This document shows, in pieces, positions 23,141-35,085 of a stretch of 35,500 nt of DNA. Origin of the DNA: an uncultured bacterium (lineage in GTDB: Bacteria; Verrucomicrobiota; Kiritimatiellia; RFP12; UBA1067); the NCBI GenBank assembly GCA_902770045.1, contig CACXRO010000025.1, positions 1-35,500 of the forward strand, in the 5' to 3' direction. Made by a program: the position numbers and the translations under genes. The notes under the pieces are model-generated. The model saw nothing but the letters and a program-made list of their open reading frames with translations, was not told the origin of the DNA and made no database searches. Positions within the stretch are counted from its first letter, which is position 1, and each line of letters starts with the position of its first letter.

Positions 23141-24472
23141 TTACAGCGTTTCGAGCGAGTGGGGGTCGAGGAGGAAGTCGACAAGGCCGATGTACGCGAT
23201 GCCGCTGTCGTCGTAGGTCCGGGTCTGGAAGGGGTCGTTGGTTATCACCACCTTTTTGAAGGAATCGCCGGTGTGGCGAAGCGAGAAGGTCTCCTGTTCT
23301 CGCTTCTCGGCGGTGGGGATGGAGTATGCGGACTGAATGTATATCTGCCTCGGACCGCGATTGACGACGAAATCGATTTCGTATTGTCGTATCGTGTGCT
23401 TCCCGGCGGAGTAGTCGTGGCGTTGCACAATGCCGACGTCAATGGAATATCCACGCCGGATGAGTTCGTTGTAGATGGCGTTTTCCATGAGGTGCGTGAA
23501 TTCCGACTGGCGGAAGTTGATGCGCGCGTTCCTAAGTCCGGTATCGGTGGCGTAGTATTTCACCGGGTAGTCGAGGTGGCGGCGCCCCTTGACGTCAAAG
23601 CGCTCTGCCTTGCTGATAAGAAAGGCGTCGGCGAGGTGGTCAAGGTATTGGACGACGGTGTTTCTGCTTGCATTGATTCCGGCAACGGTTTTTGCGGCGT
23701 TGGCGAGTTTGGTCGGGTTTGTGAGCGTGGCGGTGTCGCTCATCACGATGTCGATTACCTTCTCAAGGAGCAGATCGTTCCTGACGTGGTATCTTTCCAC
23801 GATGTCGCGGAGATAAATGGTTGCGTAAAGATCTTTAAGGTACGCCTCTTTTGCCGCAGGCGATTGGGCGAGGACGCAATCGGGGAGACCCCCGTAGAGA
23901 AGATATTCTTCGATTACCTTGAAGGGATTCCGTTCGGAATTGCGAAGAGGCATGAACTCGGCAAAGGACAGTGGCGCAACCTGTATCACGTGCCCTCTGC
24001 CTCTGAACTCCGTCGCGACGTCGGAGGCGAGCAGCCTGGAATTGGAGCCAGTCACATATACATCGACATTTTGGGTGGTTCGCAAACCGTTCAAAACACG
24101 ATAGAAGTCCACAAACATCCTCTCGCGGTCGTCAGGGTGGATCCTGGAAAGGTCAATCCCTTCCGGAAGGGCCTTGCCGCAGTATTGAATCTCGTCAATG
24201 AGCACATAGTTCATCTTCCCGTCGTGAGCAAGCTTGGAGCGAATGTAGCGGTCAAGTTTGATTGGATTGACAAGATCGGCGGTTACGGGATGTTCAAGAT
24301 CTATTTCAATGATGTGGTCGGGCTGTACTCCATCTTCCAGAAGATGGGTCTTGAATATATTGAAAAGAAGATAGCTTTTGCCACAACGCCGTATGCCGGT
24401 AAGAACCTTGACGAAGCCGTTGTGCTTAGCCTCGACGAGGCGATTCAGGAGGTCATTCCTTTGGATCGTCAT
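23141..24472 (-). CDS. AAA_14/DUF4143 ATPase
   Basis: A 443-residue ATPase of the AAA_14 plus DUF4143 type. Walker A is GIRRCGKS (Lys32) and Walker B is YVLIDEIQ (Asp93-Glu94). A sensor-like VTGSNSRLL and the family stretches GRGHVIQVAPLSFAEF, YLLYGGLPDCVL, YLKDLYATIYLRDIVERY, TVVQYLDHLADAFLI and YYATDTGLRNARI are in the usual order. The C-terminal part holds the degenerate nuclease-like segment YEIDFVV...IYIQSAYSI. The start ATG has GGAG 10 bases upstream. The family is very common in Bacteroidetes and PVC genomes, is often mobile or multi-copy, and lacks a settled function. Composition is clearly less GC-rich than the operons around it, and it is the only intact gene on the minus strand, which suggests acquisition. 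Confidence 0.92.
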   Translation of the reverse strand: MTIQRNDLLNRLVEAKHNGFVKVLTGIRRCGKSYLLFNIFKTHLLEDGVQPDHIIEIDLEHPVTADLVNPIKLDRYIRSKLAHDGKMNYVLIDEIQYCGKALPEGIDLSRIHPDDRERMFVDFYRVLNGLRTTQNVDVYVTGSNSRLLASDVATEFRGRGHVIQVAPLSFAEFMPLRNSERNPFKVIEEYLLYGGLPDCVLAQSPAAKEAYLKDLYATIYLRDIVERYHVRNDLLLEKVIDIVMSDTATLTNPTKLANAAKTVAGINASRNTVVQYLDHLADAFLISKAERFDVKGRRHLDYPVKYYATDTGLRNARINFRQSEFTHLMENAIYNELIRRGYSIDVGIVQRHDYSAGKHTIRQYEIDFVVNRGPRQIYIQSAYSIPTAEKREQETFSLRHTGDSFKKVVITNDPFQTRTYDDSGIAYIGLVDFLLDPHSLETL

Positions 24473-24488
24473 TTCAGATGCTCCGTTT

Positions 24489-24602
24489 ACATGTTTATGG
24501 TTTTTTTCATAAAGATGTCAGTAGTGTATCATAGAACGTGCCCTTCGTCAAGGGGTGCGGCGGCGTTATTTGACAGTTTGTTGAAAACCATCATAAACAT
24601 GT
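24489..24602. repeat. 32-bp imperfect inverted repeat around the ATPase promoter
   Basis: Arms 24489-24520 and the complement of 24571-24602 match at 25 of 32 positions without gaps. The first 11 (ACATGTTTATG) are identical and both end in TGTCA. The 50-base interior holds the minus-strand promoter. The layout fits paired operator sites for a regulator, or the terminal repeats of a 114-bp miniature element that brought a promoter. Confidence 0.75.
24523..24551 (-). promoter_or_regulatory. Minus-strand promoter of the DUF4143 ATPase gene
   Basis: Read on the minus strand: TTGACG (24551-24546), 17 bases, TACACT (24528-24523). It lies about 50 bases before the ATG at 24472 and sits exactly between the two arms of a 32-bp inverted repeat. 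Confidence 0.6.
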
Positions 24603-24702
24603 CAATATCTGGGGTTGGCTCTAACCTTGCGCCTTGCCGCACCTATCGCCGTGCTGCGTTTCGCCGCGTGGCGGGCGGGGCGCTGCCCGCGGTTCAGTCC
24701 GT

Positions 24703-24907
24703 TCATTCCACGGCGCCTTTCTTTCTGAGTATCGCGTTGTCTGCCTCGCGCCTGAAGTCCGGGCCCAGCAGGGACGGGTCAAGCGTCACGCAGTCGGCGT
24801 TTATCCTCCGGATGCCCAGCCGCTCCAGGAACTCGCGGCCCCTCTCCCCGTTCGTTGGCGATCGTGGACTCCGCTATGTTCAGCCGATGAAGGTCAGAAT
24901 CCTCCAT
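24703..24907 (-). pseudogene. Frameshifted remnant of a small unknown gene
   Basis: On the minus strand, ATG at 24907 opens MEDSDLHRLNIAESTIANER and then shifts frame at a GGGG run. Reading on in the next frame gives REFLERLGIRRINADC followed by VTLDPSLLGPDFRREADNAI and ends LRKKGAVE at TGA 24703-24705. Removing one G joins the two parts into about 68 residues. The result is coherent, protein-like and GC-rich, so it looks like the C-terminal piece of a decayed gene, or a gene broken by a homopolymer sequencing error. No ribosome site is visible. The rest of the 24473-25058 gap holds only the promoter signals listed separately. Confidence 0.45.
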
Positions 24908-24994
24908 TTGAAAAGGTAAACACTTCCAGGACTTGCGTTTACTCTTGCAATCGACATTATTTTCAACCCATTTACGCTATACTCGGCTGAAATA

Positions 24995-25003
24995 TGATAT
25001 AAT
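24995..25003 (+). promoter_or_regulatory. Extended -10 promoter for the transposase
   Basis: TGATATAAT lies immediately outside the left palindrome (which begins at 25006). No convincing -35 is seen at 17-18 bases; a second -10-like TATACT lies at 24978-24983. Transcripts would start at about 25010 and carry the palindrome as a hairpin in front of the ribosome site. Confidence 0.5.
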
Positions 25004-25005
25004 TC

Positions 25006-25044
25006 AAATATTGAAAATTAGGTCAGACCGAAATTTCAATATTT
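25006..25044. repeat. Left palindrome of the RAYT unit
   Basis: A 39-base palindrome in which 17 of 19 base pairs form. Its arms start AAATATTGAAA and its centre is GGTC-A-GACC. It lies between the -10 box and the ribosome site GGAGGGA of the transposase gene. Confidence 0.9.
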
Positions 25045-25058
25045 AAAATGGAGGGAAA

Positions 25059-26141
25059 ATGGCGAATTCTAACGGAAGAGTGAAGGAATGCGGCACGGTA
25101 CACCACCTTGTAAGCCGTATCGCGCATCGCGTATATTTCCTCAAGGACGAGGAACGAATGGACTTTCTCGAAATCGTCCGCCGCGCGGCGGAGTTTACCG
25201 GCATTCAACTGATTGGCTGGTGCGTCATGGGCAATCATTTCCACATCCTTGCCTTTCTTCCTGAATTCCAGGATGTCGCCGAGAATGAGGTCGTGCGGAG
25301 ATACGGAGTTCTCAGGGGATTGAGAGCGGCCGAAAGCATGACGGCGTTGCTCGGCAAGTGGAGAAGCGAGGGGGAGGCTGGCGAGCGGCGGGCCTCCGAA
25401 TGGCTTGACGGGCAGAGGCGGCGAATGCAAAGTGTCGGCAGTTTCATGAAGATCGCAAAACAGTGGTTCACAACGGAGTACAACCGACGCAATGGCCACA
25501 AGGGAACGCTGTGGGAGGCGGCATACTTCGACCGTGTCGTGCCGCGAAAAACGAAGGATATGGCGGAATGCCTTGGATACATCCACTTGAACCCGATTCG
25601 GGCGGCGGCAACAGACAGGTTGGACGGCTATGCGTGGAGCAGCTATTCGGCATTCCGCAAGGGTGAGCCGATCGCGACGGCGGGCATGCGGTTTGTGTAT
25701 GGCGGGGATGTGTCCGTGGAAGAAATGGTGGAAGCACATGAACGTTTGCTCTGCGCGCTACTCGAGAAGGAGAAGCAACGCAGGGCGGAGGAGATTGCAA
25801 GAAGGCGAGCAGACGGATACGAGGTGGCTCCGGATCCGCTGACGACGGAAGCGATGGTGGTGCAGACGGAAGCCCATCTTGCAGAAGTGCGGCAGTCGCT
25901 TCGGGAACTTCATGAGGCGGGAAATACGAAGCGTCGCGGGTGCAAAGCAAGCAGAGAAGGGAGGGAGAAGGAAATTGTCGCGCTGCTAAAAATAGACCCT
26001 CTCATGAGTGTCCCCGCGTTGGCAGAGCGCCTGGAAGTTGGCGTTGGAATGGCATACAACCTGCTGCGTTGCATGAAGAAGAGAGGAATTCTGGAACGAG
26101 ACCGCCGGAGTGGGATTTGGAATATTGAAAATGAGGTCTGA
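25059..26141 (+). CDS. REP-associated tyrosine transposase (Y1_Tnp/HUH)
   Basis: A 360-residue HUH single-strand nuclease of the RAYT (TnpA-REP) group. The HUH motif is His60-Phe61-His62 in GWCVMGNHFHILAF. The candidate catalytic tyrosine is Tyr141 in WFTTEYNRRNGHKGTLWEAAYFDRVV, and YIHLNPIRAAATDRLDGYAWSSYSAF is the usual RAYT helix with HLNPVRA. A charged helix follows at about 225-300. The C-terminus carries a winged-helix domain (EIVALLKIDPLMSVPALAERLEVGVGMAYNLLRCMKKRGILERDRRSGIW). The last six residues (NIENEV) are encoded by the right palindrome. The ribosome site TGGAGGGA precedes the ATG. RAYTs cut and join REP palindromes and are usually single-copy, domesticated relatives of IS200/IS605 transposases. 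Confidence 0.92.
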   Translation: MANSNGRVKECGTVHHLVSRIAHRVYFLKDEERMDFLEIVRRAAEFTGIQLIGWCVMGNHFHILAFLPEFQDVAENEVVRRYGVLRGLRAAESMTALLGKWRSEGEAGERRASEWLDGQRRRMQSVGSFMKIAKQWFTTEYNRRNGHKGTLWEAAYFDRVVPRKTKDMAECLGYIHLNPIRAAATDRLDGYAWSSYSAFRKGEPIATAGMRFVYGGDVSVEEMVEAHERLLCALLEKEKQRRAEEIARRRADGYEVAPDPLTTEAMVVQTEAHLAEVRQSLRELHEAGNTKRRGCKASREGREKEIVALLKIDPLMSVPALAERLEVGVGMAYNLLRCMKKRGILERDRRSGIWNIENEV

Positions 26142-26157
26142 CCTGATTTTCAATATT
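26121..26157. repeat. Right palindrome of the RAYT unit
   Basis: A 37-base palindrome with 17 of 18 pairs: arms AATATTGAAAAT and ATTTTCAATATT, centre GGTC-T-GACC. It is the same sequence family and orientation as the left palindrome. The transposase stop TGA lies at its centre. Confidence 0.9.
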
Positions 26158-26236: not shown

Positions 26237-26498
26237 TCGCGGCACATAGCCCGGATGTGGCGATTGGTGGCCTTGAATGGCCGACGCCGATTGCCATGTT
26301 TGGGAGGCGTCGGAGTAAAGCCTCGGAAACTTGACTCGTAGAGACGCATCGAAAAGGACACTGCCGTCCGTGCAGCTTCGCCTCCTTCGGTGTATCTCTA
26401 CAGGTTCATCCGAGGCGCTACTCCGATGCATCGGAGTAGGTGTTTCGTTTCCCGCACTGAATCTGATTGCAATAAGGAGGGGAAAAGAAGGACGAATC
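26237..26498 (+). ncRNA. Structured 5' leader of the giant gene (candidate cis-RNA)
   Basis: The leader has at least four possible helices. These are CACAT/ATGTG (26243-26259), CCGACGCC/GGCGTCGG (26281-26288 with 26306-26313, perfect), GTAGAGA/TCTCTAC (26338-26344 with 26395-26401), and a perfect 22-base palindrome at 26418-26439 (half-site CTACTCCGATG). AAGGAGG (26474-26480) and GAAGGA (26487-26492) precede the ATG at 26499. The reading frame of the giant gene stays open upstream to 26331 but shows no protein-like character there, so ATG 26499 with its signal peptide is preferred. It was not matched to any riboswitch class known to me. Confidence 0.5.
26418..26439. repeat. Perfect 22-bp palindrome in the leader
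   Basis: CTACTCCGATG followed at once by its exact complement CATCGGAGTAG, with no loop. It lies about 60 bases before the start codon. As DNA it could be an operator; as RNA it would be a tight hairpin. Confidence 0.8.
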
Positions 26499-35053: not shown

Positions 35054-35085
35054 AAACTACCCCCTTGCGCGCGAGGGGGTAGTTT
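35054..35085. terminator. Intrinsic terminator before the rRNA operon, possibly bidirectional
   Basis: A twelve-pair perfect stem, arms AAACTACCCCCT and AGGGGGTAGTTT (35054-35065 with 35074-35085), has a GC-rich loop and Ts on the 3' side. Seven Ts directly before it would serve as the A-run or U-run on the other strand. It would insulate the rRNA operon from the giant gene. Confidence 0.75.

Follow-up and report, generated by a model that had tools for sequence, protein, structure and literature searches.

TIRtrons are units in which TIRYT genes carry repeats at both ends, some of the repeats overlapping the gene, some self-complementary and some forming moderate families (Di Nocera et al. 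2013, PMC3733652). Many of these long terminal repeats (TIRs) have the motif GGGGWSAS (PMC3733652). TnpA-Y1 transposases of subclass 2.1 are largely equated with TIRYTs and have the motifs NH[YF]H, W[EQ] and Y[IV]HLNP, listed in Table 1 of Quentin et al. (2018, PMC6006769). That 2018 survey found no REP-like sequence near subclass 2.1 genes (PMC6006769).

A related element was analysed in a 35.5-kb stretch of DNA, here called the window, from an uncultured Kiritimatiellia bacterium (host genome G000, a 2.27-Mb assembly, 85% complete). Region 25006–26157 consists of one intact gene (25059–26141) and the window's two strongest palindromes. It is probably a TIRtron/REPtron-type unit, pairing a TIRYT-like Y1 HUH transposase, present once and maintained by selection, with cognate palindromes. 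Its features are as follows.

24995–25003, + strand: extended −10 box TGATATAAT, a consensus match only; the predicted transcription start lies inside the left palindrome.
25007–25043, no strand: left palindrome, arms AATATTGAAAATTA and GAAATTTCAATATT, centre GGTCAGACC at 25021–25029.
25050–25055, + strand: ribosome-binding site GGAGGG, outside the palindrome and starting 6 nt past the left one.
25059–26141, + strand: RAYT/TIRYT-type Y1 HUH transposase, 360 aa, assigned by Pfam Y1_Tnp, NCBIfam and fold.
25233–25244, + strand: NHFH (HUH) motif, residues 59–62, invariant in an 18-row alignment.
25578–25595, + strand: YIHLNP motif with the presumed catalytic tyrosine Y174, invariant in the same alignment; catalytic role by homology.
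25944–26108, + strand: C-terminal winged helix-turn-helix (wHTH), about residues 296–350, from weak HMM matches and fold.
26121–26157, no strand: right palindrome, centre GGTCTGACC at 26135–26143, coding for the last 6 residues and the stop codon TGA.

The protein scored 28.6 bits against Pfam Y1_Tnp (cut-off 23) and matched NCBIfam REP_Tyr_transpos at E=8.7e-16, below the family cut-off. W152-E153, the W-E motif, is likewise invariant in the 18-row alignment. The AlphaFold model has a mean pLDDT of 86.7, and its best solved fold match is 4er8, the E. coli RAYT on a REP hairpin (E=3.8e-5), followed by the IS608 and ISDra2 transposases. For the wHTH, PF09339 IclR HTH matched at E=7.8e-4, under cut-off, and MarR-type matches were weak; the model shows helices and a beta wing there at pLDDT about 82–90. 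The nearest named relatives are proteins of gut and rumen Kiritimatiellia, Lentisphaerae and Verrucomicrobia MAGs. The host genome encodes one related full copy (62% identity) plus a short weak match. Plasmids gave only weak 27% matches, and no relatives were found in the viral contigs and phages searched.

Both palindromes are 37 nt long with a 9-nt centre and AATATTGAAAAT arms. Arm matches of 17/18 and 16/18 rank them first and second among all centres in the window; 60 local-composition shuffles, the control for this ranking, gave a mean best arm match of 13.7 and a maximum of 16. Folded as + strand DNA hairpins, the left palindrome reaches −9.7 kcal/mol (z −6.9) and the right −13.5 kcal/mol (z −9.5). 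A sequence-only reading had proposed that the right copy supplies the end of the protein, and this holds: the right centre includes the stop TGA (26139–26141), and N-I-E-N-E-V is encoded by palindrome sequence. The same reading put both copies in the same orientation, a point left undecided by their register, with 24/32 arm positions matching when direct and 25/32 when inverted. Aligned as direct repeats the two are 86% identical; taken as inverted repeats they are 85% complementary across 46 nt. An Rfam search returned nothing.

Other repeats and blocks occur in the window. An 82-nt stretch at 24875–24956, just upstream of the RAYT promoter, has 92–94% identical copies near the contig ends of C21 and C66 in the same genome, and in G012. 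An AAA_14/DUF4143 ATPase gene with its upstream region (23141–24685) is 97% identical to a block of contig C46 in G428, a different species of this genus. The similarity ends sharply at 24685, and the block was probably transferred recently. About 170 nt at 26298–26468, ahead of a large leucine-rich-repeat-like gene, have 69–85% identical copies in many of the genus's genomes, often several in one genome; Rfam gave no match for this stretch, which is possibly a structured leader or repeat. The window's third-best palindrome, at 35070 (15/18 arm match, even centre), follows shortly after the end of that large gene (34892) and is probably a terminator.

The arrangement of a gene between two matched palindromes is real and recurs. 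Eighteen elements with both ends present were tabulated, the window's and 17 relatives from rumen and gut Kiritimatiellia genomes whose proteins are 44–65% identical to the window protein. A GGTCWGACC-centred palindrome is present on both sides in 18/18. The arms differ among elements in a short stretch, termed here the address, for example TATTG in the window, CATTAG in contigs G000:C43 and G033:C23, CACCGG in G033:C41, AGTGAT in G033:C6, TTGC in G006, SIG88 and RGIG9599a, and GTCAC in G016. Within elements, left and right arms agree at 0.848 over the −12 to −6 stretch, against 0.461 with elements shuffled (0/20,000 permutations). Pairs at −7, −9 and −10 take three or four Watson-Crick types yet are paired in all but a few copies; positions −2 to −4 are often mismatched. 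Because the arm pairs vary in type yet stay paired, palindrome symmetry is kept while the address switches in concert at both ends. Proteins more than about 85% identical have the same address, and the 65–69% pairs that were checked have different ones. Mantel tests of address distance against protein distance or domains were not significant once near-identical elements were removed.

The right end commonly terminates the gene. In 15/18 elements no more than 8 nt separate the stop codon from the right centre, and in ten of them it is supplied by the TGA of GGTCTGACC or the TAG of TAG|GTC. Across elements, left and right palindromes are neither consistently direct nor inverted. Insertion of elements at a palindrome centre, with outer arms matching outer and inner matching inner, was considered and fits Horse190 and G004:C44 and not the others. 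Of the more distant loci, a diverged relative in the same genus (L058, G032) has plain inverted TIRs with AAGGGTCAG, L057 has palindromes lacking the GGTC centre, and L059 has perfect CTTCTACAGAAGGGTCTGACCCTTCTGTAGAAG palindromes.

Palindromes of this type also occur away from the genes. Several of the genus's genomes contain AGGTCWGACCT in excess of its reversed control (31:0 in G033, 11:0 in G000, 7:0 in G012), and GGTCWGACC occurs 53 times in G033 against 14 for the reversed control; in other families of the order AGGTCWGACCT is not over-represented against that control. G033 encodes RAYTs with CATTAG, CACCGG and AGTGAT addresses and has gene-less palindromes of all three, and G016 likewise has dispersed cognate palindromes for the relative's address. 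G012 has CACCGG and AGTGAT palindromes without a close RAYT. Since gene-less palindromes of the same address are dispersed in relatives, they are REP-like repeats with a cognate RAYT. The proposal that the unit contrasts with a domesticated RAYT and its scattered REPs is not supported, as G033 has scattered copies for all three of its RAYTs. The suggested search for palindromes lacking the gene succeeded for relatives' addresses, but in the host genome (85% complete) the window's own address turned up beside its gene alone, with no gene-less copy.

In G012:C44 (L131, 1613) an AGTGAT palindrome lies in frame in a variable glycosyltransferase linker, and the G000 orthologue is degenerate there and 6 nt shorter. 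A 3.5-kb array in G033 (L157, 7908–11364) holds palindromes of three addresses, a HicA toxin, a RelB antitoxin and a RAYT, and is built up of internal duplications. Other repeats, about 290 bp long and with a TATACAGAAGGGTCTGACCC half-palindrome at the end, were seen at L078 (1066), L150 (3076), L156 and L063 (7541); they are multi-copy in G000 and G033 and lie at synteny breakpoints, and no cognate RAYT was identified for them.

The association of genes with palindromes could also mean that the palindromes are interchangeable, address-coded cassette ends, one transposase moving any gene that lies between two palindromes of its address. Suggestive of this is a chain in RGIG9599 (L092) that runs palindrome, RAYT, palindrome, DUF6429, palindrome. 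Both genes there are preceded by one shared 5′ leader (54 nt, 98%), and their stop codons fall in or next to the palindromes. In RUG10619 and G033, palindromes also enclose toxin-antitoxin genes. The model, which took in DUF6429, HicA, RelB, Phd-ParE and NERD genes between palindromes, was demoted since the DUF6429 genes found elsewhere in the phylum are not accompanied by palindromes of this type and since the same Phd-ParE pair occurs in G033:C6 with no palindrome nearby. We consider it very unlikely. At the loci themselves, the DUF6429 gene at L092 (5065–5455) is flanked by palindromes of the adjacent RAYT's address. The Phd-ParE pair beside the RAYT in RUG10619 (L095, 5350–5960) has REP-like pairs on both sides. 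In G030:C57 (L059, after 4117) a RAYT belonging to a different subgroup is followed, past its right palindrome, by the beginning of a very similar antitoxin.

Whether the gene-bearing unit itself moves was judged from its surroundings. At the protein level, flanking genes differ between nearly all contig pairs, with only the RAYT in common; the exceptions are the right neighbours in G006 and RGIG9599, and multi-copy genes. The flanks differ between species. A fixed syntenic locus, suspected from neighbours common to G000:C43, G033:C23, G016:C53 and G006:C3, was rejected on the same comparison. Units of one address that are 86–91% identical lie beside different flanks (G000:C43 and G033:C23; SIG88 and RUG12190). 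SIG88 has a partial, 96% identical gene copy, a tandem remnant, beside its element, and RUG12190 has flanking direct repeats. Together with a complete gene and paired ends, the 86–91% identical units in different surroundings and the partial copy at SIG88 speak for a self-mobilising insertion sequence, an IS200/IS605-like element with the palindromes as its ends, mobile as a whole through excision and insertion of a single strand. Such an element is nevertheless unlikely here. Each genome has one full gene copy per address, with no recent near-identical second full copies, and selection on the transposase genes is strongly purifying (dN/dS 0.09–0.18), as it is for low-copy RAYTs. The catalytic motif is Y-x-x-x-NP and not the Y-x-x-x-Q of IS200, and the palindromes keep no consistent direct or inverted arrangement. 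Flank searches of the window, G033:C6 and G033:C41 found no clean empty site. G000:C43 (10104) and G033:C23 (15590) resemble the filled and unfilled states of a solo-palindrome site, but the genes there are multi-copy. The self-mobilising unit first proposed is only partly supported: the flanks differ, but copy number, selection and the lack of a clean empty site count against it. At several palindromes the gene order of close genomes diverges, which may reflect ordinary repeat-mediated rearrangements. We judge the gene to be a low-mobility RAYT with its main activity on palindromes in trans.

The left palindrome invites a regulatory explanation. Its centre ends 28–30 nt before the start codon in 8/18 elements, and a TGNTAYAAT box, a consensus match only, lies 12–18 nt before the left centre in 6/18, the window included. 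These two regularities, the wHTH domain and the lack of strand bias among arm mismatches (22 G.T, 20 A.C) would suit an autoregulatory operator pair, in which the palindromes are double-stranded sites for the wHTH of a domesticated protein, the left repressing transcription and the right ending or insulating it. As an account of the whole element this is quite unlikely. The −10 box lies between palindrome and gene in G000:C43 and G033:C23, and six elements have no such box; palindromes of the same address lie far from any RAYT, one of them inside a gene; and a palindrome at the 3′ end is superfluous for an operator.

Translational control by the left hairpin, which the sequence-only reading had also raised, is scarcely credible. 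In the window about 6 nt separate the hairpin foot from the ribosome site GGAGGG, which is not part of the 37-nt palindrome; where other elements have the 28–30-nt spacing, foot and ribosome site are close together as well. In folded 5′ leaders with a recognisable ribosome site, the site is outside the main palindrome hairpin in nearly all. The mismatches show no G.U-type strand bias, and the distance from left centre to start codon ranges from 20 to 273 nt. Transcriptional autoregulation is the more plausible form of the left-hairpin idea on sequence grounds, because the extended −10 box abuts the left palindrome in 6/18 elements.

A unit of the TIRtron/REPtron type is the reading we prefer. 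During replication the Y1 domain would recognise the single-stranded hairpin formed by the palindrome, and would cut and rejoin it in the manner of the E. coli RAYT on REP hairpins. GGTCWGACC, the fixed centre, may be a class-wide recognition or cleavage element, and the arm stretch about 5–11 nt from the centre an element-specific address. Through this address each transposase would act on its own palindromes, both at the gene and at gene-less copies elsewhere. With a pair of palindromes at the gene, the unit itself might also be processed, rarely. Protein binding at the left palindrome may in addition limit expression, because this palindrome often overlaps the transcription start. For this transposase we infer binding, cleavage, mobilisation and autoregulation. 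Binding and cleavage of the palindromes by the Y1 domain appear most likely, judging from the structural model and from the E. coli analogue. Palindromic symmetry, which a dimeric protein binding double-stranded DNA would likewise require, and neutral mismatch types also fit double-stranded DNA binding by the C-terminal wHTH, so an operator role for the left copy is a live alternative or addition.

Compared with TIRYTs and subclass 2.1, the window protein has the same motifs by motif comparison (N59-HFH62, W152-E153 and Y174-IHLNP) and the same C-terminal HTH-like extension. As in TIRtrons, there are repeats on both sides of each gene, and GGGGTCAG, a sequence covered by GGGGWSAS, is similar to one half of the centre found here; the centre contains GGTCAG. 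In contrast to TIRtrons, the repeats are REP-like, with copies dispersed in relatives, and each end is a whole palindrome whose symmetric centre, GGTCWGACC, does not vary and whose arms are particular to one element. REPtrons, a RAYT (TnpA-REP) with GTAG-type REPs as in E. coli, are similar: their Y1 transposase is conserved and low in copy number, and its cognate hairpins occur both beside the gene and as dispersed gene-less copies, the latter found here in relatives. They differ in that a GT[AG]G foot, looked for as GTAG or GTGG, is absent from the window's arms and from most other elements. Here it is the centre, or hairpin tip, that is conserved and the stem that varies, and copies number few to tens, not hundreds. 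IS200/IS605 elements (IS608, ISDra2) share the catalytic-domain fold and hairpins at both ends, whereas the window's transposase has NP and not Q in its Y motif, is 360 aa long with a C-terminal wHTH and has no tnpB seen beside it, and there are no high-copy identical elements.

Among the literature matches listed for the centre sequence only unrelated sequences appeared, and the literature searched held nothing pairing Kiritimatiellia with a transposase and palindromes and describes no such system. The window-type repeats are REP-like palindromes with dispersed copies in relatives, and they add such repeats, in Kiritimatiellia, to a transposase subclass reported without any. More than 10 homologous transposases, mostly 45–70% identical, have distinct arm addresses round one constant centre, several of them in the same genome, and the system bears on the specificity of a RAYT for its own REP and on how this specificity changes. 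By its sequence the window element is a palindromic-end variant of the TIRtron kind. New relative to the known systems are its constant-centre, variable-arm code, concerted switching of the arms, and REP-like dispersal for a subclass reported without REPs.
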